Shown here: positions 175 to 34,154 of the stretch, one piece after another
How positions within the stretch are numbered: the first letter of the stretch is position 1
Layout of the letters: every line of letters starts with the position of its first letter
Assembly: GCA_905250025.1 (NCBI GenBank)
Contig: CAJNOJ010000256.1
Coordinates: forward strand, 1-64,000
Direction: 5' to 3'
Length of the DNA: 64,000 nucleotides
Origin: Adineta ricciae
Lineage: Eukaryota; Rotifera; Eurotatoria; Adinetida; Adinetidae
Position numbers and translations under genes: made by a program
The notes under the pieces: generated by a model
Told to the model about the DNA's origin: nothing
The model's input: only the letters and a program-made list of their open reading frames with translations
Databases searched by the model: none

Positions 175-1203
175 AGTCACGGATTTGATTGCCTTGATAA
201 GTCAATGGAGGATCAATCCAGAATGATTGTAGTGTTGATGATAAACGAAAATAAATAATTCTGTAGAAAATCTGAATTCTGAAAGTCGTTTTTCTGTATT
301 TGAAGTTGTTCGATCAGTGCTCGAGCTGAGCATGGTGTTAATAGGTAAGCATGTGTCCATCGTGATGCATTGAATTTTTGTGTGATAACAGTGAAAAAGC
401 ATAGAATGAAGATTTTTGAAAATGTTCATCTTCGAGAATTAATGATTAAACAGATGTTTTGTTCAGCCATTTCGTACCAAGTATCGACATGCTCCATAGT
501 GATTGCACATCGTCATTGTTGGTCATGAGTTAAAGATCGATTTTTCAAATTCAATCGTTCATAAACATGTGAAAGAGATGAATGGTATGTCGTTCGATTC
601 CATTGATAGACGGTTTTTAATTGCTGAAGTTCAGTTTTCGAATAATAATCATACGCGATACCGTCGTGATGATAAACTGAATAACCCCTGTTGATGGAAC
701 TCTCCAATTCGTTCAGTAGAACTAAATAAACATTGACAAGTTCACAAGAACCTCAGTTTAATCAATATACGAACCAAGGTTGAAGTCTTGAGGGTGTGAT
801 ACATCTGTGAACAAGGTCTTATTATTTGCCAAAGTATGGACTTGAAGTAGACTGTTTTCGTTGGATTCTATATGATCCTTCGAAATAAAAAGAAAGAAAG
901 GTTTTCGATCAGATTAAAGTCTGATGCTTCGAAAATTATATTCATGACTGAGTTGTACTTTTAATGAGAATCTTGTTACAATCATGTGTTTATGATTAGA
1001 ATAGCAAAAAATGGTTCCAATGAGTATTTATCCCAAGACAAGAGAATCTTTTTCATTCCCTTTTACAAATATGCATCGATTGGAAATGTAGTAATTACCG
1101 ACATGTCCCAGTTTTTTATTTCATAGGAAAAATCGAGACAAAATCATCGTATTACAATAGAAGTACTCATAGTAATCTTTTCGATAATGAATCAGTGTTC
1201 TTT
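175..1203. other. Intergenic, haplotype A, no confident gene
   Basis: I see only short open frames. One minus-strand frame of 64 codons (513-707) has ordinary composition but no recognisable motif; it might be an exon of the gene leaving the window at base 1. From about 785 to the wax synthase stop the sequence matches 9470-9895 closely. Upstream of 785 the two copies are unrelated. Confidence 0.5.
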
Positions 1204-2187
1204 TCAAAGACAAAAATCAGGTATGGGCACTTTTGGTATCCACTCTATGTTTATCAGTGGTGGTGGGTTCAGCACCAAAAATTCGGATCCTTGTCGAATA
1301 AATGGTGCAAGCATCAACGGCGCTGTTATGATCAGAAACACATGTGTGGTTAACCATCCAATATATCCAGGAAGTGGACGATTTAGATTCGCTTCGAAAC
1401 AACAAACTAAGCCATGCACGAAGAAAAACATAAATGCTGGAAATAATGCTGAGTAATCATCGAACAGAACCAATGCGAGATGAGCATGTAGGAGACCACT
1501 AACACTAAAAGTCATCAATCCAGCCATAGTCGGAGCTGAGAATTGTGTACAGATTGGTTGAAAGATAGATTCTTTGAGAACTGTATTCACAATCTGATTG
1601 TATCTTCGACCCCAAAACTCTCGTAAAGAAGTGCTTAAGATTGGTAAATTAGTAAATGATTCTAACGTATATTTGTTCCAAGTGAGTAGTCGAATGAAAA
1701 CAGCTTCGGAATCAAGGAAATAAGATATGCTTATCATTGACGAGTAAAACAAGAGAATTCTTGCAAAACTAACTCGTGTTTCACAACTGATTGACCATCG
1801 ATAAGTCCAATGGTTGACGAACAATTTCAGGACGATTAGAATAAGTTGTGTACTGATCGGCCACTGATTTCTCAGGGACTGTTGGGATCGAATAGGAAGA
1901 AAAGTCCAAAGAATTTTCGCGAGATATGATTGAAATGTTAATGGTGAATTCATTGTACAAACAGTTAGTTGAATCAAACGTATAAATGTCAACCAAGCTA
2001 TGGCTAAAATGATCACTGATGACGCGTAAAATGTTGGTAGATCTTGACAAGTGATCCAAGTTAATAAGCCACATGGAAATAATGTGAGGAGAAATCGAAG
2101 AAAACCATATGGAATAGGACGAATGACATAGTAAGAGATGATTATATATGCAATCCAGCTGAGAAGAATTGACGAGGACAGAGTCAT
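1204..2187 (-). CDS. Wax synthase-like membrane O-acyltransferase, copy A
   Basis: A predicted polytopic membrane enzyme expected to transfer a fatty acyl group from acyl-CoA to a fatty alcohol (wax ester synthesis, ER membrane). The chain is dominated by hydrophobic segments. It carries REFWGRRYNQIV (about residue 188 from the chosen start) and, some 43 residues on, SGLLHAHLAL with the likely catalytic His, the arrangement of wax synthase/MBOAT_2 proteins. An upstream in-frame ATG at 2274 would add 29 residues, but the B copy is out of frame there, so I take the shared Met at 2187 (MTLSSS). At about 327 residues it has normal family length, and it is intronless. It is transcribed divergently from GT61, 231 bp away. 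Substrate is not deducible; another MBOAT-type acyltransferase is possible. Confidence 0.75.
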   Translation of the reverse strand: MTLSSSILLSWIAYIIISYYVIRPIPYGFLRFLLTLFPCGLLTWITCQDLPTFYASSVIILAIAWLTFIRLIQLTVCTMNSPLTFQSYLAKILWTFLPIRSQQSLRNQWPISTQLILIVLKLFVNHWTYRWSISCETRVSFARILLFYSSMISISYFLDSEAVFIRLLTWNKYTLESFTNLPILSTSLREFWGRRYNQIVNTVLKESIFQPICTQFSAPTMAGLMTFSVSGLLHAHLALVLFDDYSALFPAFMFFFVHGLVCCFEANLNRPLPGYIGWLTTHVFLIITAPLMLAPFIRQGSEFLVLNPPPLINIEWIPKVPIPDFCL

Positions 2188-2418
2188 GGTATAGTAAAAT
2201 GCACTGATTTCTTTCTTTTGTATATTTATTATCTTTTCAAAGATATGCTCATTTGATAACCTTGAATGAGTCATTGTTCGTTTGCAAAGAATAGAACAGT
2301 GTGGTTGTTACGAACATCGCTTTTTTTCTGTCAGAACGAAAAAAGAAAAAGGCACGTATGTAAACAATTCTGTTAAATTTTACAATCGAACGGATGACGG
2401 TAAAAATCAGAAGTTTAA
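2188..2418. promoter_or_regulatory. Shared head-to-head promoter interval (wax synthase / GT61)
   Basis: The start codons of the two divergent genes are only 231 bp apart, so both promoters must lie here or overlap. The same spacing and most of the sequence recur in haplotype B (10880-11106). I see no clear TATA box in either direction. The bidirectional role is inferred from geometry. Confidence 0.45.
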
Positions 2419-4014
2419 ATGTTAACCAAACGACGAATCTTAGCATTACTCAAATTGATCGCAGTTTCATTTTGCATTGTTTTACTGCAAAAAAGTTACG
2501 TTCCACTATGGAATCATTCGACGCCAATAGATCAAACAAATAGAACATTGGAAACACGAATTCGTTGTATAGGTCCACTGATCAATCAATCCTGTTTATT
2601 CGAAAATCTCTATTATATCAATGGCGAATTTATCATTTTAACAGTCAACGGAACGTCGCTACCAGATTATTCTGTTCGAACGAATTCGCTTCAGCTTTGG
2701 CCAAAAGTACGACAAAAGCGTGTTTTTGATTCTTATTCGTCTCTGGAACATTTCGTTCGAACAATTGCTGAACCGACAAGTATTCCTGATGTCACTGTTT
2801 ATTTTATTCAAGATTGGCAATACAATATTGGTCATGCATTATTTGACGGACTGTACCCTGCTTATCTTGCTTTGATTCGTTTCTCTCCTCGACATCTTCA
2901 TCCATTTCGACTATTTACAGATTTTCGTGATTGTGATAAATGTTGGACTGAAGACATCTATCAACGATTCTCTGGCCTGCCAATTATCAAAGAGCTTCAG
3001 TTCATGCAGACGTCCACGCGGCGATGGTTTATGTTCGAAGAGATCATTATGGGAAGTGGAATGATGTGTCAACGTTGTACGCAAACAAATTTTCAATTAC
3101 CTGGTGGAATTGAACTGGACGGCTCACGGCTCTTTCGTGATCGAATGTATCGCCAGCATGGATTATTACCACCAAGAGTTCGACATCGATCGTCATCTGA
3201 ATATCGAACATCAAATGATGTTCTTCGCACTTATGTGATTCATAATAAACGTTTTCACGAGGATGATATTCAACAGATTCAAGACGCCATCGCTGAGATC
3301 AACAACTATACGCATTTCTTTAAAAAGGAACAACAGCAGCAGCAGCACCCGTTAATTCACATATCTTATCTTCACTATGAAGATATACCACTTCGCAATT
3401 TGACTCCGTCACTATTTCAAGATAACAAATTCATTGCACAATTACGTCTCTTACGACAGATGGACATTCATATAAGTGCGCCGGGGACAGGTCAAATGTA
3501 TCAAACGTTTTTACCGGACGGTTCTATTCATATCAATCTCGGTGGTTTAAAACCCGATGGGTCAGATAAAACAAAGAAAGTGTTTACTTCGTTCGGCGAA
3601 CAATATATGACAAGCGGGACACCGTATATCAAAGGTCTTTATTACCCAATTAATGAACGAGTAAAAGGGATTCGACAAGATGAGGTTGTGCGATTAGTCC
3701 GACAAGCAGCGAAATTAATCCTTGATGGGTTCGCCATACCAGTGAATCCATATGATAACTTGGCGAACGATGGACAATTGTTTATAGAAATGTGTGCTAA
3801 AGATCCAGTTTTTTGTTCGTTAGTAACAACAAGACCTGCACAAACACATTTTCCGTGTTTTAACTTTTGGATTGAAGAGCTTATTCATGAGTATCGACAA
3901 TGGAAAGTGGGAGGAGTAGTTGACAATCAAAAAAATCTCACTTGTACATACGATCAAACTTTACTACGACAACTAAGACAGAAGTACAGAATTACACACA
4001 ACTGTTCGTTTTGA
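2419..4014 (+). CDS. GT61-family glycosyltransferase, copy A
   Basis: A 531-residue type II membrane protein, probably Golgi or ER lumenal. After a short basic N-terminus there is one hydrophobic anchor (about residues 8-25), then NxT/NxS glycosylation sites and the catalytic region. Family-like blocks are QDWQYNIGHALFDGLYPAYL (from about residue 130) and HISAPGTGQMYQTFLPDGS (from about 352), characteristic of the DUF563/GT61 fold shared by EOGT and plant xylosyl- and arabinosyltransferases. Donor and acceptor cannot be read from the sequence. The gene is intronless. A glutamine run near residue 310 is longer than in B. An AATAAA signal lies at 4062-4067. It converges on the glutamate receptor with a 75 bp gap. 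Confidence 0.8.
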   Translation: MLTKRRILALLKLIAVSFCIVLLQKSYVPLWNHSTPIDQTNRTLETRIRCIGPLINQSCLFENLYYINGEFIILTVNGTSLPDYSVRTNSLQLWPKVRQKRVFDSYSSLEHFVRTIAEPTSIPDVTVYFIQDWQYNIGHALFDGLYPAYLALIRFSPRHLHPFRLFTDFRDCDKCWTEDIYQRFSGLPIIKELQFMQTSTRRWFMFEEIIMGSGMMCQRCTQTNFQLPGGIELDGSRLFRDRMYRQHGLLPPRVRHRSSSEYRTSNDVLRTYVIHNKRFHEDDIQQIQDAIAEINNYTHFFKKEQQQQQHPLIHISYLHYEDIPLRNLTPSLFQDNKFIAQLRLLRQMDIHISAPGTGQMYQTFLPDGSIHINLGGLKPDGSDKTKKVFTSFGEQYMTSGTPYIKGLYYPINERVKGIRQDEVVRLVRQAAKLILDGFAIPVNPYDNLANDGQLFIEMCAKDPVFCSLVTTRPAQTHFPCFNFWIEELIHEYRQWKVGGVVDNQKNLTCTYDQTLLRQLRQKYRITHNCSF

Positions 4015-4042
4015 AAAGCCTAGATCCTATATAGTTATTTCT

Positions 4043-4067
4043 TTTATTTGTACTAAATAACAATAAA
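4043..4067. terminator. Crossed poly(A) signals of two convergent genes
   Basis: AATAAA for GT61 is at 4062-4067 on the plus strand. The reverse complement TTTATT at 4043-4048 serves the receptor on the minus strand. Each signal lies beyond the other on its own transcript, so the two 3' ends should overlap by some tens of bases. In B the plus-strand signal is the weaker form ATTAAA (12742-12747). Confidence 0.5.
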
Positions 4068-4089
4068 AAACATCTTTTAAAAGAAAAAG

Positions 4090-6762
4090 TCATGTATGAC
4101 GATGCGACGGAACGAAAGGCAAATGGTCTGAATATGAAAGACTAGGGCCAGGAGTAGGCGGTGGAGGAGTATCAAGCGCTATGTCGCTTGAGATAACTAC
4201 TTTCGATCCGTAATGTTTGTGTAATATCCTTCCTATGTACATTAGTAACGATAGAAGACTAATAACTCCAAAGACAGCAAACAAATCAGCGATGGCTTCA
4301 AATGGTAAATCTGTTGGATCTGATGTTCCTGAGTCCTGTGCACATGTTGTTGCCTGAAACCATTTTCTTTGCAACTCATTGAACACATTTGCTTCACGGA
4401 ATGATAATACGGTGACATCCAGGATCTGTTCATATAACCACTTCTTTGGATACATGATTCCGAATGAACTATGATCGAAACCGGCACCGACGAGAGTCAA
4501 ATTGCAATAGACGGCACTGGTCGCGTACTCGACGACACCTGAATCCATGATTGATGCATCGATAACTTTATTTAATAACTTTTCGTACATATCTTCTTTG
4601 GTTGTTAACGGATAATAATTTCGACTACCACCAGTGATTTCTCGAAGAAAATAATCTTCAATCGAAGTACCTACAAGAATGCCAATTCGATTGTATGGAA
4701 CTTTTCCATTTTTAATATCGTCAATGCCGGCGATGAAATCTTGTGATTGAGAGAGAGTTAACTTCGCTGTTAACGTTGCTTGATATGCGGCAATGAGAAC
4801 GACGCTGACGACGTATATACCGCTTGTCAGGATGCGACCAGGTGATGTTTTTGCTTGGAAGTCAACACCGTATCCAATAAGTGTCCCAATTGCATACCAA
4901 ATGCTCATTCCAATGCGAGAAATTACTGGCTTCTTTCTGAGTTCTGCATGGCGTACTTCATAGAAGTAAATTAGCAAAGCAGACCAAAGAACGACGAGTG
5001 CGATCATGATCCAGAGAATTACTGGAAATGGTTTCAAAAAGGCGAAACGACCATAACTTTCGGAAGTTTTCTTTCGAATGATTAACCGTAATGTGTTGTC
5101 AAAGATTGACTCAGAAAACGACACTTTTTCTCTTCGGACGGCTAAAATTGTGATATCTCCAACTATCACATCGAATTGGTCATTTACTATTAAATCAGGC
5201 AGACTGCTATATGTAACATTTTGAGGTATTAAAGTGACATTTGCGATAAATCCCATTTTTTCTTGTAGACGATAAACCAAATCAACGGCATAGCCGACTA
5301 ATTTTGCTTTCTTATTTCCATATTCATCTGTAATTTCTTTCTCCATAGCAAATGGAACTGTTTCTTTAACACCAATACGTAATGTAACGCCGTGAATGGA
5401 TGCGTAACCGGTTGGTATAGTTAAAGATTGACCAGGCCAAACAATAATGTTTTTTTCAGCATGTTGGGTCCAGTCAGCTGATCCGGTCGATACTAGGACT
5501 GGAACAAAGTTAAGAGTTTTGGAAAAACGTTGAACATTTTTCACAATGTAATAGGAACCGTTGATTCGATCTGTTGTATTGGTAAAAAATTGAACAGAAC
5601 CTGTCACACCCAGGAAAGTATTTGTATTAAGTATATCAAATATTGAATGCATATTTAGAGCACGTCGGTCGAAACAAAACGAAGTATTCGTAAATCCAAT
5701 GCACGATGAAAAATTGCTGTTGGAGCACAATCGTGAAAATGATTCAATCAACGCCCATGTTGCATCAAATGCAAACAATGTGTAATAATCAACGTTTGCT
5801 GTGCCAGGAAACGATTCAGGTTCATACGTCTTCCAGATGGTATACGCATCATTTAACAATGTTTGATTTACTGGTGCGCCTGCCAGATTTCCTACCACAG
5901 GACTAATGGATAATATTCCAACTAAGCGATCATACCAAGTGTCGTTGAAATCTGTTAATGCAACATCGCCGCCCAATATCCATGTAAATAATGGGCCAAC
6001 TACATCTGCTTTGAGACCGCTTTGTAGAATTAGTGTTGCATAAGTCGAATCAGCCCAAACGATTACGGTTCGTGCTAAACTGTGTGTCAATATACCTTTC
6101 AAATCACCCCGAATGGCCAATGTTGTCATATCGAAGATCATCGTGTCTGTAACAGTTATATTGCTATCAGCAAACGCATCAGAAAGGGCTTTAACGCCTC
6201 CCGTTCCAAATTCATCATTTTGGTAAATAATGATACACATTGTCCAATTGAATCGCACAAACAGTTTAGCCATAGCCAAAGCTGCGTCATTATCCGAAGG
6301 TACTGTACGATAAAAACTGGGATATTCTATTCGATCGGACAGTTTAGGGTCAGTTGCACCATAGGATATGATGGGAATATCGATATCTTCAGTAAATGGT
6401 GCAAGTACATGTGCTTCTCGCGAAACTGACGGTCCAACAATACCGACAATATTGGAAGTCGACACTGCTTCACACGTCATACGAAGAGCGTTCATGGGAC
6501 TACCTGACGTTGTTTCAAGACGCCAGCCCAAATATTCACCTCCGACAGTTATACCGTATTGATGAGAAAGCAGTATAGCCGAGTAGAACATCGCACGAGT
6601 TTGATAATACCATGACTGAATATTAGTGATATCAGTGATATTTTGTGAAAGATATAGTAGCTGAACTGCTGATGAATTCGCTGAAGGCCAAGTTCCTTCT
6701 ACTTGTCGTTGAACAAAAAGGAAATACAAACATAAGCACTGAAACTTCCATACGAACGTCAT
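4090..6762 (-). CDS. Ionotropic glutamate receptor with K+-channel-like GYG pore, copy A
   Basis: An 890-residue ligand-gated channel subunit for the plasma membrane. Order: signal peptide (about 1-24, ending near QVEGTWP), amino-terminal clamshell domain of the ANF-receptor type (IVGIVGPSVSREAHVLAPF, IPIISYGATDPKLSDR), ligand lobe S1 (LRIGVKETVPFAMEKE; AVRREKVSFSES with the conserved amino-acid-binding Arg), M1, re-entrant pore loop, M3 (AAYQATLTAKLTLSQ, cognate of SYTANLAAF), S2 (GTSIEDYFLR, MDSGVVEYATS), M4 and a short Pro-rich tail. The pore loop reads TLIGYGVD at 627-634, close to the TTVGYGD filter of potassium channels and unlike the Q/R/N-site loop of animal AMPA or NMDA receptors. 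A K+-selective bdelloid receptor with a GYG signature (AvGluR1, Adineta vaga) is known, so this is probably a relative. Intronless. Confidence 0.9.
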   Translation of the reverse strand: MTFVWKFQCLCLYFLFVQRQVEGTWPSANSSAVQLLYLSQNITDITNIQSWYYQTRAMFYSAILLSHQYGITVGGEYLGWRLETTSGSPMNALRMTCEAVSTSNIVGIVGPSVSREAHVLAPFTEDIDIPIISYGATDPKLSDRIEYPSFYRTVPSDNDAALAMAKLFVRFNWTMCIIIYQNDEFGTGGVKALSDAFADSNITVTDTMIFDMTTLAIRGDLKGILTHSLARTVIVWADSTYATLILQSGLKADVVGPLFTWILGGDVALTDFNDTWYDRLVGILSISPVVGNLAGAPVNQTLLNDAYTIWKTYEPESFPGTANVDYYTLFAFDATWALIESFSRLCSNSNFSSCIGFTNTSFCFDRRALNMHSIFDILNTNTFLGVTGSVQFFTNTTDRINGSYYIVKNVQRFSKTLNFVPVLVSTGSADWTQHAEKNIIVWPGQSLTIPTGYASIHGVTLRIGVKETVPFAMEKEITDEYGNKKAKLVGYAVDLVYRLQEKMGFIANVTLIPQNVTYSSLPDLIVNDQFDVIVGDITILAVRREKVSFSESIFDNTLRLIIRKKTSESYGRFAFLKPFPVILWIMIALVVLWSALLIYFYEVRHAELRKKPVISRIGMSIWYAIGTLIGYGVDFQAKTSPGRILTSGIYVVSVVLIAAYQATLTAKLTLSQSQDFIAGIDDIKNGKVPYNRIGILVGTSIEDYFLREITGGSRNYYPLTTKEDMYEKLLNKVIDASIMDSGVVEYATSAVYCNLTLVGAGFDHSSFGIMYPKKWLYEQILDVTVLSFREANVFNELQRKWFQATTCAQDSGTSDPTDLPFEAIADLFAVFGVISLLSLLMYIGRILHKHYGSKVVISSDIALDTPPPPTPGPSLSYSDHLPFVPSHRHT

Positions 6763-7714
6763 CGCAATCTGAAAAGAAACTATTTGTCATAAAGGCTCTG
6801 ATTTTTCTTTCGTTTTATGTATACACGTAAAGGTTAATATCGAATATAAAGAAAAACATTATGCATGGTTAATTCTGAATAGGTATTAAATTATATACAT
6901 ACATGTGTCTGTAGGAGAAAACCAAGCGCATGCACTTCCTCTTTATTTTCGAATATAATACATCGAATAACACTACATCATAGTGACACAACGCATAACC
7001 TAACTGCATTATTTTTTCACCTGGGTAAACAATTTTCTCCAACCATTTCAAATCATGATATTGTACCATTTCATACTTTTCTTCATAATTAAATATCGAT
7101 TCTCTCTACTCGAATATAACATAGCAGTGAAGACATCACACGGATTTCGTAAAGTTACCTTTGACGACTAGAAATGAATATATGCGTGTGCTATGGAGAA
7201 TACAAATCATATGCATGTAGTAGCGTTCCAGTATCACAGATAATCAGTGAAATAATACGATCAAACAGAATCATCTCACCCTCAAGCACCGCTTGAGATC
7301 TGAAAACGACTGGGTCGGTATTGAAAAATTTTCAATTTATCAGTTCTGAAACATAATTCTGATAATTCTTTATAGAGAAGTTTGATGAATATTTCCTTGC
7401 CTCTCTGTTCGTTGCGCAATATTTTTATTTGATGTATTTTAGATTTATTGAATACGACAAGATGATTATAAGGTATAATTTTTTTGCAATATCTACGTGA
7501 AAAATTGATCTGCCTCTAATTTGTTTAATCTAAGCTTATGGAGGATAGGCTGTTGCTGGAAGGCATCTACAGAAAGTTTTTCTATAAGCAAGAAGCCATG
7601 TTTAAGAGTGTACTAGAGAAAGGTCACTACAGTTGCAGTTGCGGGTTCAGTTGAAACATGATGTAACTTTGGTTAGCAGGAATAACAAAGAGCAGAAGTC
7701 ATCTGCCTTTAATA
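6763..7714. other. Intergenic between glutamate receptor and deaminase-like gene, copy A
   Basis: This stretch holds the receptor's upstream region and the deaminase-like gene's 3' side. It is alignable with 15446-16417 over its whole length, with scattered substitutions and small indels. No open frame or RNA gene is convincing. A small perfect hairpin (TCAAGCACCGCTTGA, near 7293) is present in both copies. Confidence 0.5.
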
Positions 7715-8794
7715 TTATAATTGGGTATTTTTCTTGCTATTAATATGTGTATCATCGTCATCATCCGAACGTGATCGCTCAAGAATCGAAGCAACCGGAG
7801 CAGCACCAATAGGCGGATTAGTATCCGACTGATTTGAGTCATTAGTAGGTTGTTGCCGGATATTGTGAGCAGGTATTGTTGCACCACTTGCAATAGAAGC
7901 AATAACAGTTTGCTCAGATTCAGCCATAGATGGACTTGATTTGAATTTCAATAGTTGCCGATATATTCCATGAACAGCAGCTGTAGCGGCGCTAGCATGA
8001 GGACAAAGAACATACAAGAAATGTTGATCGCTATCCCCACGCACTTTAGGACTTGGATTCACTCGAAGATTGCACTGGCCAGTCAGACTATATGCGAACG
8101 CATATGTGTACTTATTAGTGTTTGTATACAACACTAAAGTGCGCTCCGTGGAGTCTTTATTATTAGTATCACCCGATGCTTTCAAGGCCTTCGCCACTTC
8201 TTCACCATTCACATTGACTGCATAGGCGCGAATATCAATTGGGTCTTTTAGCTTGCGTATGTCGTTAAAAAAGTCTCCTGGATCCGTGGACCGTGAGTCC
8301 ATCGAGTAAATTACAGTACGGTCAAATTCTAATTTAATTTCGTGTTTAAGAGCTTCATTAACTGCTGTATCATTCTTACAAAGGACAAAAGTAGATAAAA
8401 TACTTTTCCAGTTATCATAAATAAAATCGAATTTCTTCTTTGATTCCTCATTTTTTGCCTTCGACTCTTCATTTGAATTTCCGAATTTCGTACTATAATC
8501 TTCATAAAGTCTTTCCTTGTCCCACTCTTCGTGAGTAACGGTCTGACAAACAAATGCTATATGCGCCATAACATCTGTAGTCCAGTTGGCAGTACTTTCC
8601 TGGGTAGGAGTCTTGTCTTCGTCTTCATTCGTATTTTCACCAGTAGGTACAATTGTATTTTGATCGCGTAGTAATTGTTCGACGTCTGGATGAACAATAA
8701 CATATCCAGTTGAATACGTTTCTTTTAAATCCACATTTTCTAATGGTGGATCTAAGTTTGAGTTGTTTACATTCCAAAAACAATACTTTTTCAT
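7715..8794 (-). CDS. Deaminase-like protein, C-terminal domain only, copy A (truncated by the assembly)
   Basis: This is the haplotype A version of the last third of the gene intact at 16418-19756. It starts at MKKYCFWNVNNSN, an internal position of the full protein, because the sequence folds back on itself just upstream (8817-8976) and then meets an N. The matching N-terminal piece is at 20794-21416; about 1.4 kb between them is not represented in A. The region carries no catalytic motif and belongs to the unknown C-terminal domain. Its tail differs from B: ILERSRSDDDDD here against ILKRPRSDDDDD there, and here it extends further to THINSKKNTQL. Treat as one allele of the B gene, not a separate gene. 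Confidence 0.8.
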   Translation of the reverse strand: MKKYCFWNVNNSNLDPPLENVDLKETYSTGYVIVHPDVEQLLRDQNTIVPTGENTNEDEDKTPTQESTANWTTDVMAHIAFVCQTVTHEEWDKERLYEDYSTKFGNSNEESKAKNEESKKKFDFIYDNWKSILSTFVLCKNDTAVNEALKHEIKLEFDRTVIYSMDSRSTDPGDFFNDIRKLKDPIDIRAYAVNVNGEEVAKALKASGDTNNKDSTERTLVLYTNTNKYTYAFAYSLTGQCNLRVNPSPKVRGDSDQHFLYVLCPHASAATAAVHGIYRQLLKFKSSPSMAESEQTVIASIASGATIPAHNIRQQPTNDSNQSDTNPPIGAAPVASILERSRSDDDDDTHINSKKNTQL

Positions 8795-8976
8795 CGCTGC
8801 AAAATAATTAATTCAAAGGTGCATCTCGAGTGTATTTTTGCAGCGATGAAAAAGTATTGTTTTTGGAATGTAAACAACTCAAACTTAGATCCACCATTAG
8901 AAAATGTGGATTTAAAAGAAACGTATTCAACTGGATATGTTATTGTTCATCCAGACGTCGAACAATTACTACGCGA
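8660..8976. repeat. Fold-back (inverted) junction in the deaminase-like gene
   Basis: The sequence 8817-8976 is the reverse complement of about 8660-8800, so the gene reads inward from both sides. The right arm continues with the true upstream sequence (compare the reverse complement near 17470-17515) for about 20 bases before turning. It ends at the N at 8977. Such inverted chimeras are typical of amplified DNA or mis-assembly; a real palindrome is less likely. Confidence 0.75.
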
Positions 8977-9365: not shown

Positions 9366-9895
9366 CTAGAGCGCAATTCGGAAACAGTTGATTCGATTTC
9401 GATCAGGACATTGACTGAACTATTTGCATGCTTTGCTACTTAACTCTTCACGCAAAACCCTTGTCTATGGCCATTGAGGGTGCGATACATCTGTGAATAA
9501 AGTCCTATTATTTGCCAAAGTATGAACTTGAAATAGATTGTTAACAATTTTTGTTGGATTCTATATGATCCTTTGAAATAAAAAGAAAAAAGGTTTTCAA
9601 TCAGATTAAAGTCTGATGCTTCGAAAATTATATTCATGATTGAGTCGTACTTTCAATGATAATCCTGCTACAGTCATGTGTTTATGATTAGAATAGCAAA
9701 AAATGGTTCCAATGAGTAATTATCTCAAGACAAGAGATCATTTTTCATTCCCTTTTATAAATATGCATCGATTGGAAATGTAGTAATTGCCGACATATCC
9801 TAGTTTTTTATTTCATAGGAAAAATCGAGACAAAATCATCGTATTACAATAAAAGTGCTTGTAGTAATCTTTTAGATAACTGATGAGTGTTCTTT
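9366..9895. other. Intergenic, haplotype B, upstream of the second cluster
   Basis: No gene is seen. Similarity to haplotype A begins at about 9470 (A: about 785) and continues into the wax synthase gene. Between 9366 and 9470 nothing matches A. Confidence 0.5.
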
Positions 9896-10879
9896 TCAAA
9901 GACAAAAGTCAGGTATGGGCACTTTTGGTATCCATTCTACGTTTATCAATGGCGGTGGGTTCAGCACCAAAAATTCGGATCCTTGTCGAATAAATGGTGC
10001 AAGCATCAACGGAGCTGTTATGATCAGAAATACATGTGTGGTTAACCATCCAATATATCCAGGAAGTGGACGATTTAGATTCGCTTCGAAACAACAAACT
10101 AAACCATGCACAAAGAAGAACATAAATGCTGGAAATAGTGCTGAGTAATCATTGAACAGAACCAATGCGAGATGAGCATGTAGGAGACCACTAACACTAA
10201 AAGTCAGCAATCCGGCCACAGTCGGAGCTGAGAATTGTGCACAGATTGGTTGAAAGATAGATTCTTTGAGAACTGTATTCACAATCTGATTGTATCTTCG
10301 ACCCCAAAACTCTCGTAAAGACGTGCTTAAGATTGGTAAATTGGTAAATGATTCTAATGTATATTTGTTCCGAGTGAGCAGTCGAATGAAAACAGCTTCG
10401 GAATCAAGAAAATAAGATATGGTCATCATTGACGAGTAAAACAAGAGAATTCTTGCAAAACTAACTCGTGTTTCACAACTGATTGTCCATCGATAAGTCC
10501 AATGGTTGACGAACAATTTCAGAACGATTAGAATAAGTTGTGCACTGATTGGCCACTGATTTCTAAAGGATTGTTGGGATCGAATGGGAAGAAAAGTCCA
10601 AAGAATTTTCGCGAGATATGATTGAAATGTTAATGGTGAATTCGTTGTACAAACAGTTAGTTGAATCAAACGTATAGATATCAACCAAGCTATGGCTAAA
10701 ATGATCACTGATGACGCGTCAAATGTTGGTAGATCTTGACAAGTGATCCAAGTTAATAAGCCACATGGAAATAACGTGAGGAGAAATCGAAGAAAACCAT
10801 ATGGAATAAGACGAATGATATAGTAAGAGATGATTATATATGCAATCCAGCTCAGAAGAACTGACGAGGACAGAGTCAT
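9896..10879 (-). CDS. Wax synthase-like membrane O-acyltransferase, copy B
   Basis: Allelic partner of 1204-2187 with the same REFWGRRYNQIV and SGLLHAHLAL blocks and the same C-terminus (PKVPIPDFCL). A 2-bp difference upstream puts the long N-terminal extension possible in A out of frame. The open frame here begins MHFTTMTLSSS (10894); the Met at 10879 is the shared start. Amino-acid differences are few and mostly conservative in the membrane segments, so both alleles look functional. Confidence 0.75.
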   Translation of the reverse strand: MTLSSSVLLSWIAYIIISYYIIRLIPYGFLRFLLTLFPCGLLTWITCQDLPTFDASSVIILAIAWLISIRLIQLTVCTTNSPLTFQSYLAKILWTFLPIRSQQSFRNQWPISAQLILIVLKLFVNHWTYRWTISCETRVSFARILLFYSSMMTISYFLDSEAVFIRLLTRNKYTLESFTNLPILSTSLREFWGRRYNQIVNTVLKESIFQPICAQFSAPTVAGLLTFSVSGLLHAHLALVLFNDYSALFPAFMFFFVHGLVCCFEANLNRPLPGYIGWLTTHVFLIITAPLMLAPFIRQGSEFLVLNPPPLINVEWIPKVPIPDFCL

Positions 10880-11106
10880 GGTAGTAAAATGCACTGATAA
10901 CTTTCTTTTGTATATTTATTATCTTTTCAAAGATATGCCCATTTGATGACCTTGAATGAGTCATTGTTCGTTTGCAAAGAACAGAACTGTGTGGTTGTTA
11001 CGAACATCGTCTTTTTTTCTGTCAGAACGAGAAAAGAAAAAAGCACATATGTAAACAATTTTGTTAAATTTTGTAGTCGAACGAATGACGGTAATCAGAA
11101 GTTTAA

Positions 11107-12696
11107 ATGTTAACCAAACGACGAATCTTAGCATTACTCAAATTGATCTCAGTTTCATTTTGCATTGTTTTACTGCAAAAAACTTACGTTCGACTATGGA
11201 ATCATTCGACGCCGATAGGTCAAACAAATAGAACATTGGAAACACGAATTCGTTGTATAGGTCCACTCATCAATCAATCCTGTTTATTCGAAAATCTCTA
11301 CTATATCAATGGCGACTTTATCATTTTAACAGTCAACGGAACGTTGCTACCAGATTATTCTGTTCGAACGAATTCGCTTCAGCTTTGGCCAAAAGTACGA
11401 CAAAAGCGTGTTTTTGATTCTTATCCGTCTCTGGAACATTTCGTTCGGACAATCGCTGAACCGACAATTATTCCTGATGTCACTGTTTATTTTATTCAAG
11501 ATTGGCAATACAATATTGGTCATGCATTATTTGATGGGCTGTATCCTGCTTATCTTGCTTTGATTCGTTTCTCTCCGCGACATCTTCATCCATTTCGACT
11601 ATTTACAGATTTTCGTGATTGTGATAAATGTTGGACTGAAGACATCTATCAAAGATTCTCTGGCCTGCCAATGATCAAAGAGCTTCAGTTCATGCAGTCG
11701 TCCACGCGACGATGGTTTATGTTCGAAGAGATCGTTATGGGAAGTGGGATGATGTGTCAACGTTGTACACAAACAAATTTTCAATTACCTGGTGGAATTG
11801 ACCTAGACGGCTCACGGCTCTTTCGTGATCGAATGTATCGGCAGCATGGGTTATTACCACCAAGAGTTCGACATCGATCGTCATCTGAATATCGAACATC
11901 AAGCGATGTTCTTCACACTTATGTCATTCATAATAAACGTTTTCACAATGATGATATTCAACAGATTCAAAACGCCATCGCTGAAATCAACAACTATACA
12001 CATTCCTTTAACAAGAAACAACAGCAGCAGCCGTTAATTCATATATCTTATCTTCATTATGAAGATGTACCACTTCGCAATTTGACTCCGTCATTATTTC
12101 AAGATAACAAATTCATTGCACAATTACGTCTCTTACGACAGATGGATATTCATATAAGTGCGCCGGGGACAGGTCAAATGTATCAAACATTTTTACCGGA
12201 CGGTTCTATTCATATCAATCTCGGTGGTCTAAAACCCGATGGGTTAGATAAAACAAAGCAAGTGTTTACTTCGTTCGGCGAACAATATATGACAAGCGGA
12301 ACACCGTATATCAAGGGTCTTTATTACCCAATTAATGAGCGAGTAAAAGGGATTCGACAAGGTGAGGTTGTCCGATTAGTCCGACAAGCGGCGAAATTAA
12401 TCCTTGATGGGTTCGCCATACCAGTGAATCCATATGATAACTTGGCGAACGATGGACAATTGTTTATAGAAATGTGTGCTAAAGATCCCGTCTTTTGTTC
12501 GTTAGTAACAACAAGACCTGCACAAACACACTTTCCCTGTTTTAACTTTTGGATTGAAGAGCTTATTCATGAGTATCGACAATGGAAAGTGGGAGGAGTA
12601 ATTGACAATCAGAAAAATCTCACTTGTATATACAATCAAACTTTACTACGACAACTAAGACAGAAGTACGGAATTACACACGACTATTCGTTTTGA
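11107..12696 (+). CDS. GT61-family glycosyltransferase, copy B
   Basis: Allele of 2419-4014, 529 residues. The membrane anchor and both family blocks are identical to A. The main length difference is a shorter polyglutamine stretch (NKKQQQQPL against KKEQQQQQHPL). Flanking geometry is the same: 227 bp from the divergent wax synthase start and a short convergent gap to the receptor. Intronless, complete. Confidence 0.8.
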   Translation: MLTKRRILALLKLISVSFCIVLLQKTYVRLWNHSTPIGQTNRTLETRIRCIGPLINQSCLFENLYYINGDFIILTVNGTLLPDYSVRTNSLQLWPKVRQKRVFDSYPSLEHFVRTIAEPTIIPDVTVYFIQDWQYNIGHALFDGLYPAYLALIRFSPRHLHPFRLFTDFRDCDKCWTEDIYQRFSGLPMIKELQFMQSSTRRWFMFEEIVMGSGMMCQRCTQTNFQLPGGIDLDGSRLFRDRMYRQHGLLPPRVRHRSSSEYRTSSDVLHTYVIHNKRFHNDDIQQIQNAIAEINNYTHSFNKKQQQQPLIHISYLHYEDVPLRNLTPSLFQDNKFIAQLRLLRQMDIHISAPGTGQMYQTFLPDGSIHINLGGLKPDGLDKTKQVFTSFGEQYMTSGTPYIKGLYYPINERVKGIRQGEVVRLVRQAAKLILDGFAIPVNPYDNLANDGQLFIEMCAKDPVFCSLVTTRPAQTHFPCFNFWIEELIHEYRQWKVGGVIDNQKNLTCIYNQTLLRQLRQKYGITHDYSF

Positions 12697-12772
12697 AAAG
12701 CCTAGATCCCAAATGGTTATTTCTTTTATTTGTTCTAAATAATTAAAAAAAAACATTTTTTAAAAGAAAAAT

Positions 12773-15445
12773 TCATGTATGACGATGTGAACGAACGAAA
12801 GGCATATGGTCTGAATATGAAAGACTAGAGACAGGAGTAGGAGATGGAGGAGTATCAAGTGCTATGTCATTTGGGATAATCGCTTTCGATCTGTAATGTG
12901 TGTGCATTATCCTTCCTATGTACATTAGTATCGATAGAAGACTAATAACTCCAAAGACAGCAAACAAATCAGCGATGGCTTTAAATGGTAAATCTGTTGG
13001 ATCTGGTGTTCCTGAGTCCTGTGCGCATGTTGTTGCCTGAAACCATTTTCTTTGCAACTCATTGAACACATTTGCTTCACGGAATGATAATACGGTGACG
13101 TCCAGAATCTGTTCATATAACCACTTCTTTGGATACATGATTCCGAATGAACTATGATCGAAACCGGCACCGACAAGAGTCAAATTGCAATAGACGGCAC
13201 TGGTCGCGTACTCGACGACACCTGAATCCATGATTGATGCATCGATAACTTTATTTAATAACTTTTCGTACATATCTTCTTTGGTTGTTAACGGATAATA
13301 ATTTCGACTACCACCAGTGATTTCTCGAAGAAAATAATCTTCAATCGAAGTACCTGTAAGAATGCCAATTCGATTGTATGGAACTTTTCCATTTTTAATA
13401 TCGTCAATGCCGACGATGAAATCTTGTGATTGAGATAGAGTTAACTTCGCTGTTAACGTTGCTTGATATGCGGCAATGAGAACAACGCTGACGACGTATA
13501 TACCGCTTGTCAGGATGCGACCAGGTGATGTTTTTGCTTGGAAATCAACACCGTATCCAATAAGTGTTCCAATTGCATACCAAATACTCATTCCAATGCG
13601 AGAAATTACTGGTTTTTTTCTGAGTTCTGCATGGCGTACTTCATAGAAGTAAAGTAGCAAAGCAGACCAAAGAACGACGAGGGCGATCATGATCCAGAGA
13701 ATTATTGGAAATGGTTTCAAAAAAGCGAAACGACCATAACTTTCGGAAGTTTTCTTTCGAATGATAATTCGTAATGTGTTGTCAAAGATTGACTCAGAAA
13801 ACGATACTTTTTCTCTTCGAACGGCTAAAATTGTGATATCTCCAACTATCATATCGAATTTGTCATTTACTATTAAATCAGGCAAACTGCTATATGTAAC
13901 ATTTTCAGGTATTAAAGTGACATTTGCGATAAATCCCATTTTTTCTTGTAGACGATAAACCAAATCAACGGCATAGCCGACTAATTTTGCCTTCTTATTT
14001 CCATATTCATCTTTAATTTCCTTCTCCATAGCAAATGGAACTGTTTCTTTAACACCAATACGTAATGTAACGCCCTGAATGGATGCGTAACCGGTTGGTA
14101 CAGTTAAGGATTGACCAGGCCAGACAATAATGTTTTTTTCAGCATGTTGGGTCCAGTCAGCTGATCCAGTGGATACTAGGACTGGAACAAAGTTAAGAGT
14201 TTTGGAAAAACGTTGAACATTTTTCACAATATAATAGGAACCATTAATTCGATCTGTTGTATTAATCGAAAATTGAACAGTACCGGTGACACCCAGAAAA
14301 GTATTTGTTTTGAGTATATCAAATATTGAATGCATATTTAAAGCACGTCTGTCAAAACAAAACGATGTGTTCGTAAACCCAATGCACGATGAAAAATTGC
14401 TGTTGGAGCACAATCGTGCAAATGATTCAATCAACGCCCATGTTGCATCAAATGCAAACAATGTGTAATAATCAACGTTCGCTGTGCCAGGAAACGATTC
14501 AGGTTCATACTTCTTCCAAATAGTGTACGCATCATTTAACAATGTCTGATTTACTGGTGCGCCTGCCAGATTTCCTACCACAGGACTGATTGATAGTATT
14601 CCGACTAAGCGATCATACCAAGTGTCGTTGAAATCCGTTAACAAAACATCACCGCCCAATATCCATGTAAATAGTGGACCAACTACATCCGCTTTGAGAC
14701 CACTTTGTAGAATTAGTGTTGCATAAGTCGAGTCGGCCCAAACGATTACGATCCGTGCTAAACTGCGTGTCAATATACCTTTCAAATCACCCCGAATGGC
14801 CAATGTTGTCATATCGAAGATCATTGTGTCTGTAACAGTTATATTGCTATCAGCAAACACATCAGAAAGGGCTTTAACACCTCCCACTCCAAATTCATCA
14901 TTTTGGTAAATAATGATACACATTGTCCAATTGAATCGCACAAATAGTTTAGCCATAGCCAAAGCTGCGTCATTATCCGAAGGTACCGTACGATAAAAAC
15001 TTGTATATGCAATTCGATCGGACAGTTTAGGGTCAGTTGCACCATAGGATATGATGGGAATATCGATATCTTCAGTAAATGGTGCAAGTACATGTGCTTC
15101 TCGCGAAACTGACGGTCCAACAATACCGACAATATTGGAAGTCGACACTGCTTCACATGTCATACGAAGAGCGTTCATGGCATTACCTGACGTTGTTTCA
15201 AGACGCCAACCCAAATATTCACCTCCGACAGTTATACCGTATTGATGAGAAAGCAGTATAGCCGAGTAGAACATCGCACGAGTTTGATAATACCATGACT
15301 GAATATTAGTGATATCTGTAATATTTTGTGAAAGATATAGTAGCTGAATTGCCGATGAATTCGTTGAAGGCCAAGTTCCTTCTACTTGCCGTTGAACAAA
15401 AAGGAAATACAAACATAAGCACTGAAACTTCCATACGAACGTCAT
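12773..15445 (-). CDS. Ionotropic glutamate receptor with K+-channel-like GYG pore, copy B
   Basis: Allele of 4090-6762, 890 residues from the shared start MTFVWKF. An in-frame ATG seven codons upstream (15466) exists only in this copy because of a small difference before the start, so I do not use it. The pore signature TLIGYGVD, the S1 Arg, the M3 block and the S2 Asp (MDSGVVEY) are identical to A. Differences concentrate in the amino-terminal domain and the cytoplasmic tail (for example PSPTPVSSLSYSDHMPF here). Conservation of the pore in both alleles argues against a sequencing error. Confidence 0.9.
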   Translation of the reverse strand: MTFVWKFQCLCLYFLFVQRQVEGTWPSTNSSAIQLLYLSQNITDITNIQSWYYQTRAMFYSAILLSHQYGITVGGEYLGWRLETTSGNAMNALRMTCEAVSTSNIVGIVGPSVSREAHVLAPFTEDIDIPIISYGATDPKLSDRIAYTSFYRTVPSDNDAALAMAKLFVRFNWTMCIIIYQNDEFGVGGVKALSDVFADSNITVTDTMIFDMTTLAIRGDLKGILTRSLARIVIVWADSTYATLILQSGLKADVVGPLFTWILGGDVLLTDFNDTWYDRLVGILSISPVVGNLAGAPVNQTLLNDAYTIWKKYEPESFPGTANVDYYTLFAFDATWALIESFARLCSNSNFSSCIGFTNTSFCFDRRALNMHSIFDILKTNTFLGVTGTVQFSINTTDRINGSYYIVKNVQRFSKTLNFVPVLVSTGSADWTQHAEKNIIVWPGQSLTVPTGYASIQGVTLRIGVKETVPFAMEKEIKDEYGNKKAKLVGYAVDLVYRLQEKMGFIANVTLIPENVTYSSLPDLIVNDKFDMIVGDITILAVRREKVSFSESIFDNTLRIIIRKKTSESYGRFAFLKPFPIILWIMIALVVLWSALLLYFYEVRHAELRKKPVISRIGMSIWYAIGTLIGYGVDFQAKTSPGRILTSGIYVVSVVLIAAYQATLTAKLTLSQSQDFIVGIDDIKNGKVPYNRIGILTGTSIEDYFLREITGGSRNYYPLTTKEDMYEKLLNKVIDASIMDSGVVEYATSAVYCNLTLVGAGFDHSSFGIMYPKKWLYEQILDVTVLSFREANVFNELQRKWFQATTCAQDSGTPDPTDLPFKAIADLFAVFGVISLLSILMYIGRIMHTHYRSKAIIPNDIALDTPPSPTPVSSLSYSDHMPFVRSHRHT

Positions 15446-16417
15446 CGCAATCTGAAAAGAAAACATTTGTCATAAAGACTCTGATTTTTCTTTCGTTTTA
15501 TGTGTACACGTAAAGGTTAGTATCGAATATAAAAAAAACATTATGCATGGTTAATTCTGAATAGGTATTAAATTATATATGTACATGTGTCTGTCGGAGA
15601 AAATCAAGCGTATTCACTTCCTTTATTTTCGAATAGAATACATCGAATAACACTACATCATAGTGACACAATGCATAACCTAACTGCGTTATTTTTTCAC
15701 CTGGGTAAACAATTTTGTCCAATCTTTTCAAATCATGACATTGTACCATTTCATACTTTCTTTCATAATTAAATATCGATTCTCTTTACTCGAATATAAC
15801 ATAGTAGTGAAGACATCAGACGGATTTCGTAAAGTTACCTTAGACGACTAGAAATGAATATATGCGTACTATGAAGAATACAAATCATATGCATATAGTT
15901 GCGTTCCAGTATCACAGATAATCAATGAAATAATACGATCAAACAGAACCCTCTCACCCTCAAGCACCGCTTGAGATCTGAAAACGACTGGGTCGGTGTT
16001 GAAAAAGTTTCAATTTATCAGTTCTGGAACATAATTCTGATAATTCTTTGTAGAGAAGTTTGATGAATATTTCCTTGCCTCTCTGTTCGTTGCGCAATAT
16101 TTTTAGTTTATGTATTTTAGATTTATTGAATACGACAAGATGATTATAAGGTATAATTTTTTTGCAATATCTACGTGAAAAATTGATCTGCCTCTAATTT
16201 GCTTAATCTAAGCTTATGGAGGATGGGCTGTTGCTGGAAGGCATCTACAGAAAGTTTTTCTATAAGCAAGAAGCCATGTTTAAGAGTGTACTAGAGAAAG
16301 GTCACTACAGTTGCAGTTGCGGGTTCAGTTGAAACATGATGCAACTTTGGTTAGCAGGAATAACAAAGACCAGAAGTCATCTGCCTTTAATATTATAAAT
16401 GGGAATTTTTCTTGCTA
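15446..16417. other. Intergenic, copy B (partner of 6763-7714)
   Basis: Alignable throughout with the A interval. No coding or RNA feature is visible. It contains the receptor's upstream region and the 3' side of the deaminase-like gene. Confidence 0.5.
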
Positions 16418-19400
16418 TTAATGTGTATCATCGTCATCATCCGAACGTGGTCGCTTAAGAATCGAAGCAACCGGAGCAGTACCAATAGACGGATTAGTAT
16501 CCGACTGATTTGAGTCATTAGTAGGTTGTTGCAGGATATTGTGAGCAGGTATTGTTGCACCACTTGCAATAGAAGCAATAACAGTTTGCTCAGTTTCAGC
16601 CATACATGGGCTTGATTTAAATTTCAATAGTTGCCGATATATTTCATGAACAGCAGCTGTAGCGGCGCTGGCATGAGGACATAGAACATACAAGAAATGT
16701 TGATCGCTATCCCCACGCACTTTAGGACTTGGATTCACTCGAAGATTGCACTGGCCAGTCGGGCTATATGCGAACGCATATGTGTACTTATTAGTGTTTG
16801 TATACAACACTAAAGTGCGCTCCGTGGAGTCTTTATTATTAGTATTACCCGATGCTTTCAAGGCCTTCGCCACTTCTTCACCATTCACATTGACTGCATA
16901 GGCACGAATATCAATTGAGTCTTTTAACTTGGATATGTGGTCATAAATGGCTCTTGGATCCGTGGACCGTGAGTCCATCGAGTAAATTACAGTACGGCCA
17001 AATTCTAATTTAATTTCGTGTTTAAGAGCTTCATTAGCTTTTGTATCATTCTTACAAAGGACAAAAGTAGATAAAATACTTTTCCAGTTACCATAAATAA
17101 AATCGAATTTCTTTTTTGATTCCTCATTTTTTGCCTTCGACTCTTCATTTAAATTTCCGAATTTCGTACTATAATCTTTATAAAGTTTTTCCTTGTCCCA
17201 CTCTTCGTGAGTAACGGTCTGACAAACAAATGCTATGTGCGCCATAACGTCTGTAGTCCAGTTGGCAGTACTTTCCTGGGTAGGAGTATTGTCTTCATCT
17301 TCATTCGTATTTTCACCAGTAGGTACAATTGTATTTTGATCGCGGAGTAATTGTTCGACGTCTGGATGAACAATAACATATCCAGTTGAATACGTTTCTT
17401 TTAAATCCACATTTTCTAATGGTGGATCTAAGTTTGAGTTGTTTACATTCCAAAAACAATACTTTTTCATCGCTGCAAAAATACACTCGAGATGCTCCTT
17501 TGAATTAATTATTTTGCTTGAAATTGCGTGGCAGTATTCGGCAGCTAATGAATGATGGCCAGGATGCACGGATGAACATTGATCGATAGGCCAAATTCCA
17601 TCATCATCAGTTCCGAGAACGATCGGTATCTTATTGTCAAACAATCTTTTAAGGCATAACATCTTTGAATCATCTTCTGAGCGTATTGTTGGCCCAAGTA
17701 AATATCTATTACTAGTAATATTCACTTCGAAAGCAATGTTTTTCAATAAATCACCCGCAAGATGACGCATTTGTGCCACGAGTACAGATGATTTACGAAC
17801 TCTACACGACCTCGTAGGTTCAGCCAAAATTTTATTAAACGCGATACCATGACCAATTCGAATACCACGCTTAAGTTCTTGTTGAAGAAAATGTAAACAA
17901 CGAAAGACAATATACATATGTGCCACGAACAGTCGGTAAGCCGGACTCTCATCATCAATATATTTCACATTTTCACCGCAATGAATACGAACGCCGAAAT
18001 AAGAGTTTTTAGCCCTTTGATCTTTAATAAACTTGATGAATGGACGCGCAATAAACGGACAGTAAGGAAATCCGAGTTCATCACCAAAAAGGTCGAGTCC
18101 AACGACCCACTGGGAAAAACAAGGTGTAGTTTCGCTGACGTCTTTTAATTTTTCTAACTGTTTCAGACATGGACCAAAAGCTAGGTTTTCTTCGCATTTG
18201 CTAAGTTTACGCGGCTCTGTTTCTGTCAACATACTACGACTCTCTTCAATTTTTTCGTTCATTAACATTATTGCTTCGTGTGGCTTAATATATAAGAATT
18301 GAAGCGCTTTATCTTGATCAAGTGGAAAAGGCTCTTTGATGTTTTGCCGATTGAAACCAGCCAGAAACTTATAAGTAACAGTGGGTGTAGTAGAGGTTGT
18401 GCTTTCACCATTCGGCTTAATGCGTCCTTTGAAAGCAACTTGAAGATGAGGGAAATAGCCGTTAAGAACGAGTTGTGAAAAAGAACTGCATTCATCTTGT
18501 GCTTCATAGACAGATGATGATGAATTCTTGTTGATATCCTTAATTTTCTGGAGGCCATAAACTTGAACACTGCGAAGTACATCAAACACCCATGGACAGC
18601 AAAGGTCATTGACGCTGACTGATATCTCACAATATCGAACGGGAGGTAAGCAAGTCTGGTAACGTTCGATAATGTGCGCAAGAAGCGTGGCTAGAATATC
18701 TAGTCTTTGCGAATAAATCGAATCCTTAAGAGCAAATCGGCGTGGATAAAAATCAGGCGTGAAAGAACCGTGAAAACTATGAAAGTCAATAGGACGAGCA
18801 GGTGTTCCTGAAGCATCGCACATTGAAAAGGCGTTGACAAGATGGCCACGTGCTAATTTCGCTGCTTCAACTGATGACGTCGTCGACTCAGTACTAAGCA
18901 GATTTCGTAACTGTGCAACTTCGATGCCATAAACTACATCGAATTTTTGTTTTCTAGCATTAAAAATAATCCAATGTTTAAAATGGATTTTCCGATTTGC
19001 CAGATGGCCGCCTAGCTTTTCACTGATAGCCAATTCGACAAATCCTTGACACGATGAATCCTTGATGTTTAGACCTTTCGCCAAATCAGATAATTCCAAG
19101 ATAACGTCACNAGTACTAAGCAGATTTCGTAACTGTGCAACTTCGATGCCATAAACTACATCGAATTTTTGTTTTCTAGCATTAAAAATAATCCAATGTT
19201 TAAAATGGATTTTCCGATTTGCCAGATGGCCGCCTAGCTTTTCACTGATAGCCAGTTCGACAAATCCTTGACACGATGAATCCTTGATGTTTAGACCTTT
19301 CGCCAAATCAGATAATTCCAAGATAACGTCACATGAGAAATCATGTTTAAATGTCAGCTGATAATGAATTATTTTGTGATACAGTTCTTCATCTATAAGT

Positions 19401-19756: not shown

Positions 19757-19863
19757 ATATAATAAGGTCTCTGTCGTAGTTTACAGCGAATCGAGTTCGT
19801 GAATAATCTGAAGCAAATTTTCAGTAGTAAAGAGAAAACAATAGAAGAGTTTTCCAATTTATA

Positions 19864-19871
19864 CTTATATA
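19864..19871 (-). promoter_or_regulatory. Probable TATA box of the deaminase-like gene
   Basis: On the minus strand the sequence reads TATATAAG, about 110 bases upstream of the start codon. The same octamer sits at 21524-21531 before the A copy. It is inferred from sequence and position only. Confidence 0.4.
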
Positions 19872-20242
19872 GTGCGCAATTTTCTGCGTTACTCAGGAAT
19901 GGTGTAAAGTCCTGTACATTGTGAGCCTGTCTGCGGGTTTCTGGAGTGATATATATCAACAAGAACAAAGAAAGTATGGTATCGAAGATAATATTCCTTC
20001 TCGAAAAACAGACGAAAGAGAGGTCTGGAACAATCGATGAACAGAGAGATGAGGAGGAATGTATTCAGACGTGACACAGTAGAGAGGAAGAGAGAGAAAC
20101 AGTAACGAGAGTACTCATCATCGTTGATGTATATCGATTTCTTAGATAAAAGAATGTTCGATTGTCTTTCTCGGTTTTATCTCACTGGTATTAATGTAAA
20201 TAGTAATGCAAGAGCATGCGAAGCAGAAGAACATATATATAT

Positions 20243-23761: not shown

Positions 23762-23896
23762 TAAGTTTTTCAAAGGAATACACTGATATCATACGCCATC
23801 TTTCGAAGATGCTTATGATAGGAGAAATGCTAGCTACTTTCTGGTCAGCGACGATGAAGCAAATTTTGCCTTGTTTCCAGTAGCATATCAGCACGT

Positions 23897-25334: not shown

Positions 25335-26425
<1,091 letters not shown>

Positions 26426-34013: not shown

Positions 34014-34154
34014 TAAGTTTTTCAAATGAATACACTGATATCGTACGCCATCTGTCGCAGATGCTTATGGTAGGAGAAATGCTAGCTATACTTTCTGCAT
34101 GGTCAGTGACGATGAAGTAAATTTTGCCTTGTTTCCAGTAACATATCAGCACGC

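Follow-up and report, generated by a model that had tools for sequence, protein, structure and literature searches.

The first 64,000 nucleotides of Adineta ricciae contig CAJNOJ010000256.1 (assembly GCA_905250025.1), hereafter the window, contain two copies of a gene coding for a glutamate receptor whose pore loop carries the GYG triplet of K+ channels. The encoded protein is probably a member of the bdelloid AvGluR1 family, an amino-acid-gated, K+-preferring subunit of a tetrameric channel, in which the gate has been modified. Judged by alignment, it is this gate, in the M3 helix, and not the selectivity filter that is the unusual part of the receptor and the part worth following. An earlier sequence-only reading of the locus had seen in the protein an altered filter and hence a selectivity that might differ. 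That proposal does not hold, since AvGluR1 itself reads TIVGYGAD at the filter and a Thr or Ser at residue 628, the place of the second Thr of K+ channels, occurs in a single one of the 233 rotifer-type proteins compared here.

The features of the receptor gene and of its second copy are the following.

4090..6762, minus strand: receptor gene copy 1 (P0001), an uninterrupted single open reading frame of 890 residues plus stop
6691..6762, minus strand: putative signal peptide, residues 1-24, its boundary placed from the hydrophobic start (model helix 2-17)
5443..6690, minus strand: amino-terminal domain (ANF_receptor), approximately residues 25-440, from Pfam and structure comparison
5065..5400, minus strand: S1 half of the ligand-binding clamshell, residues 455-566, including R543, from Pfam and sequence alignment
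4957..5022, minus strand: M1 helix, residues 581-602, from the AlphaFold2 model
4876..4926, minus strand: M2 pore helix, residues 613-629, from the AlphaFold2 model
4861..4884, minus strand: predicted selectivity filter T-L-I-G-Y-G-V-D, residues 627-634, G630 being the Q/R/N residue and D634 the +4 residue, from alignments
4741..4845, minus strand: M3 helix, residues 640-674, from the AlphaFold2 model
4756..4788, minus strand: M3 gate motif AYQATLTAKLT, residues 659-669, replacing SYTANLAAFLT, from alignments
4342..4734, minus strand: S2 half of the ligand-binding clamshell, residues 677-807, including D740, from alignments
4198..4302, minus strand: M4 helix, residues 821-855, from the AlphaFold2 model
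12773..15445, minus strand: receptor gene copy 2 (P0002), 890 residues; a start at an in-frame ATG farther upstream would give 897 and extend the gene to 15466
13544..13567, minus strand: selectivity filter of copy 2, the same eight residues, from the translation
13439..13471, minus strand: M3 gate motif AYQATLTAKLT of copy 2, identical residues, from the translation

Copy 1 matches the Pfam families ANF_receptor (residues 78-407), Lig_chan-Glu_bd (460-565), Lig_chan (583-833) and SBP_bac_3 (480-803). Together with the helices of an AlphaFold2 monomer model (mean predicted local distance difference test score 83.4), these matches bear out the earlier description of an animal-style receptor with an amino-terminal domain, an S1/S2 clamshell and an M4 helix. 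The octet TLIGYGVD, reported for residues 627-634 of both copies, is present in both translations. The two proteins are 95.2% identical, with a nonsynonymous divergence (dN) of 0.024, a synonymous divergence (dS) of 0.12-0.13 and a dN/dS ratio of 0.18-0.20, and only two of the 98 residues between 575 and 672, spanning M1 to M3, have changed. Both reading frames are under purifying selection between the copies. The 890 codons form one intronless frame, and P0009, P0015, P0028 and other jgi rows are near full length from metagenome contigs, which suggests that much of the rotifer-type receptor family is intronless. Intronless structure is unusual among animal glutamate receptors.

Comparisons were made on a set of 236 proteins, P0001 included, consisting of 233 rotifer-type proteins (both window copies among them) and three from plants and molluscs. 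The named sources of the rotifer-type proteins are Adineta, Rotaria and Didymodactylos, and many members are metagenome rows assigned to this type by similarity. Three protein searches, two of which scored the 7997 candidates sharing most words, gave 113, 339 and 278 matches, used in full for the first and as the best 120 for each of the others. Counts over 193 proteins come from an earlier alignment of 196. Two trees were built, both by quick searches with support from the Shimodaira-Hasegawa-like approximate likelihood ratio test (SH-aLRT) only. The larger tree holds 116 of 231 rows and excludes the filter and gate columns; two of the 233 proteins were dropped for poor coverage, close relatives were thinned and all 24 rows with a broken filter were deliberately kept while intact rows were thinned.

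The register of the pore loop was established through several pairings. A phmmer alignment with GluN1 sets the Asn-Ser-Gly of the N-methyl-D-aspartate (NMDA) receptor loop opposite G630-Y631-G632, and a mollusc ionotropic glutamate receptor (iGluR), P0113, has Gln opposite G630. The counterpart of this Gln in GluK3 and GluK2 is the leading Gln of their MQQG loop, taken here as the Q/R site. G630 also pairs with the first Gly of GYG in AvGluR1, and pairwise alignments made without MAFFT run ungapped through the filter in five cases out of five (AvGluR1, its A. ricciae relative P0126, another A. vaga receptor, a mollusc and a plant sequence). By these alignments GYG occupies the Q/R/N site, that is, the predicted selectivity filter, so that the comparison of the pore with AvGluR1 and animal receptors, which the sequence-only reading had put forward as a potentially refuting check on itself, lands GYG on the filter position. 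K+ channels carry an Asp directly after GYG. Because the register is ungapped throughout the filter, D634 is to be read as the +4 acid of glutamate receptors rather than as that Asp. An acid is found at 634 in 214 of the 233 proteins, AvGluR1 included, and at 633 in none. Of two departures from K+ channels proposed earlier, the replacement of the second Thr by Leu stands, and the acid read as shifted by one place is this +4 acid. Acids at the +4 site have been described across metazoan receptors and plants, with an equivalent aspartate in GluR0 (PMC12226733; this and the other papers named by PMC identifier are cited for excerpts of their text). Since GYG or GFG occurs in 209 of the 233 proteins, and given the dN/dS ratio and the two changes in 98 residues reported above, the presence of GYG is not due to chance.

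Comparison with AvGluR1 and its family leaves little that is distinctive in this filter. AvGluR1 (4IO2) is the closest solved structure to the window receptor (E 2.6e-80). The A. vaga protein I4U23_015259 (P0124) is 99.1% identical over 111 residues and 100% over 131 to the ligand-binding domain of 4IO2, and is taken here for AvGluR1 itself or a copy nearly identical to it. The pore of P0124 reads GTIVGYGADF, the filter TIVGYGAD and M3 ASYTANLASELT. P0126, which is near AvGluR1 (77.9% and 88.6% in the ligand-binding domain), has the filter TLVGYGAD. Relative to AvGluR1, the window filter shows Leu for Ile at 628, Ile for Val at 629 and Val for Ala at 633. Position 628 holds Ile in 138 proteins, Leu in 60, Val in 16, Met in 13, Phe in two, Ala in two, Cys in one and Thr in one, and position 633 holds Val in 115 and Ala in 93; position 627 is Thr in 111, Asn in 97 and another residue in 25. 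The least common residue of the window filter is Ile629 (15/193), and the exact octet is shared by three proteins (P0001, P0002 and P0004). A review gives the shared motif as TXVGYG (PMC3483616). That string is absent from the window, owing to Ile629, and has exact matches in 23 of the 233 proteins, for which reason it was not treated as defining. As the residues differ from those of AvGluR1 only by aliphatic exchanges, all of them common save Ile629, the filter is, on this alignment, an ordinary one for the AvGluR1-type family, and none of its residues would predict a selectivity unlike that of AvGluR1. An alteration relative to AvGluR1 was consequently rejected, because AvGluR1 and nearly all of the 233 proteins likewise do without the second Thr and carry the acid one place later.

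Across the family the filter core is GYG in 188 proteins and GFG in 21. The remaining 24 have other triplets (GKS, ACA, KRG, GNA, THG and others), P0206, P0208, P0211, P0217, P0221 and P0229 being examples, and some of them may be poor gene models. On the best tree of 116 of 231 rows, GYG or GFG against any other core requires at least 13 changes of state.

The divergence of the window receptor lies in the M3 gate. The channel-closing motif, SYTANLAAF in animal receptors such as GluK3, is AYQATLTAK in the window receptor, with changes that include the third (T3, residue 661), seventh (A7) and ninth (F9, residue 667) positions. T3 is Thr in 215 proteins, Gln in 17 and Ile in one. Those with Gln are the window copies P0001 and P0002, P0003-P0005 and P0216 (A. 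ricciae), P0008, P0010, P0011 and P0197-P0199 (A. steineri), P0229 (A. vaga), and P0200, P0201, P0217 and P0236. All 17 read YQA at the gate and combine it with Thr at A7, a residue that 22 of the remaining 216 carry there, and Lys at F9 is confined to the two window copies, Asp being found there in 159 proteins. On the larger tree a single 20-row clade (SH-aLRT 100) takes in all 17 Gln rows together with the Thr rows P0006, P0007 and P0204, and Gln at T3 needs three changes, with gain and loss indistinguishable. The earlier tree (160 of 196 rows, eight of them with Gln, support 88) needed one change; a single gain was hence dropped once more members called for three, and what was retained is that all Gln rows lie in one clade. 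The GYG or GFG core is missing in five of the 17 Gln members and in 19 of the 216 others, but a link between the Gln gate and broken filters beyond shared ancestry is unsupported, as there are one (starred branches) to three (all branches) independent pairs and a sign test gives p = 1. In AMPA receptors T3, A7 and T11 line the closed gate, and a gate of Gln, Thr and Thr should therefore change gating.

The ligand site, in turn, is conserved at its anchoring residues. R543 is Arg in 192 of 193 proteins, with one gap, and D740 is Asp in 191 of 193; these are presumably the two residues that in iGluRs bind the ligand by its alpha-carboxyl and its alpha-amino group. Neighbouring residues are S700 and I701 in the window receptor against Ala and Gly in AvGluR1, which is described as being activated by glutamate and hydrophobic amino acids, with chloride as a co-activator (PMC12226733). 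Desensitisation of AvGluR1 is attenuated by concanavalin A (PMC11188076).

Among solved receptors, AvGluR1 is the nearest in sequence to the window receptor, which both searches and trees place among bdelloid relatives. With AvGluR1 (PDB 4IO2-4IO7) the window receptor shares the order of domains, GYG at the Q/R/N site, an aliphatic second filter residue, the +4 Asp and the Arg/Asp pair; overall identity is 45.7% and identity in M1-M3 is 34.7%, and the M3 motif is SYTANLASE in AvGluR1. AvGluR1 is the bdelloid glutamate receptor named in the passages cited here, and it has been treated as intermediate between the K+-selective glutamate receptors of bacteria and those of vertebrates (PMC12332018). 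GluR0 of Synechocystis is by description likewise ligand gated with a K+-channel-type filter (PMC12332018), and is reported to be without an amino-terminal domain and M4 (PMC11479355), both of which the window receptor has. From K+ channels of the KcsA type comes the likeness of a GYG core ending the pore helix (613-629 in the model). Their signature TXXTVGYG (PMC6385376) is not matched, the window having Leu628 for Thr and Ile629 for Val, and the receptor further differs from K+ channels in the absence of Asp directly after GYG, in a pore set inside the ligand-binding domain and in the presence of M4. With AMPA, kainate and NMDA receptors it shares the overall fold, the ligand-binding domain and, as in GluK3, the acidic +4 site, but it has Gly630 where these carry the Q/R/N residue and AYQATLTAK where they carry SYTANLAAF. 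Within the Gln-gate subfamily it shares YQA and the Thr at A7, and differs by its Lys667.

It seems reasonable to postulate, from its kin, that an amino acid would close the clamshell and thereby pull M3 open, and that the backbone carbonyls of GYG would favour K+ as in AvGluR1. Opening of the channel would then tend to hyperpolarise the cell, making this an inhibitory glutamate receptor, and the M3 changes from Thr to Gln, Ala to Thr and Phe to Lys should alter gating or conductance rather than the choice of ion. Several observations weigh against this assignment. M1-M3 identity to AvGluR1 is just 34.7% (98 columns), the M3 gate differs from that of AvGluR1 at T3, N5, A7 and F9, among others, and the filter may be under weaker pressure in the Gln subfamily, five of whose 17 members are without the GYG or GFG core. 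The AlphaFold2 model gives the pore loop moderate confidence only, and among the rows listed the whole-chain template modelling (TM) scores against iGluRs of known structure are modest (0.32-0.57 by model length). The VIA-align structure rows cover mainly model residues 26-504, barely including the pore, and the absence of K+ channels among them is therefore uninformative.

In K+ channels a Thr lines the K+ site lying innermost; almost every member of the family does without it, and selectivity may for this reason be less strict than in a true K+ channel. A weakly selective or even Na+-permeable channel in spite of GYG is thus a possible, if doubtful, alternative, to which the near absence of Thr or Ser at 628 (one protein of 233) lends weight. 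The selectivity of AvGluR1 is itself disputed: a review calls it permeable to Na+ (PMC3483616), whereas two later papers call it selective for K+ over Na+ (PMC11479355, PMC12226733). Weak selectivity would, moreover, be a property of the family and not one specific to the window gene.

Rather unlikely is a silent or obligate partner subunit, in which the Gln/Thr gate and a ring of four Lys outside it would block a conducting homotetramer, so that other subunits were needed. The rarity of Gln at T3 (17/233), its company with Thr at A7, the Lys at F9 of the two window copies and the five broken filters among the Gln members are all congruent with such a role, but the window filter is intact and identical in both copies, and M1-M3 has changed at no more than the two residues mentioned. 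That the filter residues themselves confer a selectivity unlike that of AvGluR1, as supposed in the sequence-only reading, is very improbable: Leu, Ile and Val do replace Ile, Val and Ala at 628, 629 and 633, and the exact octet is rare, yet these are three aliphatic exchanges, and Leu at 628 and Val at 633 are common. A pseudogene or assembly artefact is scarcely credible, for although the window is a scaffold in which single Ns connect the contigs and at least two contigs overlap, each copy has 890 uninterrupted codons and the dN/dS ratio is low, and the relatives P0003 and P0004 (61-63% identity) occur in named A. ricciae records.

The assembly does bear on how the two copies are related. 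Single Ns lie at 8977, 19111, 20793, 31786, 33473 and 56914, and four stretches are duplicated (788-8804 and 9474-17480; 19134-20242 and 20794-21902; 22173-31516 and 32213-41597; 42110-49198 and 56912-63999), with 89-97% identity in pieces. The copies flank single-N joins, although the last of them begins two bases ahead of its join. Because each duplication breaks at a join, haplotype contigs laid head to tail are likelier than four tandem duplications. The sequence-only reading had spoken of both alleles; there are indeed two receptor copies, flanking a single-N join, and they look like alleles on haplotype contigs joined head to tail, which is likely but not proven. A published A. ricciae assembly, not necessarily that of the window, was scaffolded with SSPACE and its authors suspected scaffolding errors at some gap breaks (PMC5916493). 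The same source reports just two linked homologous blocks, both tandem, which speaks against the haplotype-contig interpretation (PMC5916493).

Two further irregularities were seen at contig ends. At 18890-19332, 221 bases at a contig end are repeated at 99.5% after a single N, and the 1112-residue reading frame at 16418-19756 reads the stretch twice, which looks like an unmerged contig overlap rather than a real repeat in the protein. At 8664-8976 an inverted repeat of approximately 313 bases turns the contig end back on itself, the probable cause being either an artefact of assembly or a genuine palindrome break. The GC content of the window is 36.3%, compared with published values of 35.6% for A. 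ricciae and 30.8% for A. vaga (PMC5916493), a transfer RNA scan of the window found none, and Pfam identifies the following neighbouring genes.

1204-2274: MBOAT acyltransferase
23897-24850 and 34155-35111: aldo/keto reductase, two copies
28638-29354 and 38892-39764: acyl-CoA oxidase, N-terminal part, two copies

In A. vaga, the loci I4U23_015093, 015095, 015244 and 015259 (AvGluR1 and three relatives) have nearby numbers on the same longest contig (20.4 Mb), which suggests that they form a gene cluster. A scan of genome contigs for prokaryotic homologues returned seven loci, each matching solely within the amino-terminal region, at query residues that jointly span 83-355, and none in the pore; both patterns were amino-terminal, and the scan is uninformative on origin. 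By title and abstract, and within the open-licence literature only, no survey of the bdelloid AvGluR1-type family or of its M3 gate was found, which is weak evidence of absence.

Beyond the window gene, we tentatively propose that the Gln-gate proteins may constitute an undescribed bdelloid subfamily with a rebuilt M3 gate (T3 to Gln and A7 to Thr, with F9 to Lys in the present case), and that the K+ filter has been broken repeatedly both there and elsewhere in the family. If this is true, the glutamate receptors of bdelloids would form a natural gradation of pores, K+-type at one end and non-K+ at the other, and would include a gate chemistry unseen in the other iGluRs compared. At least 209 GYG or GFG proteins, at least 13 filter changes and a subfamily with an altered gate would make a natural set for questions on K+ selectivity and on the M3 gate, a set of which the window gene itself would be an ordinary-filter member.
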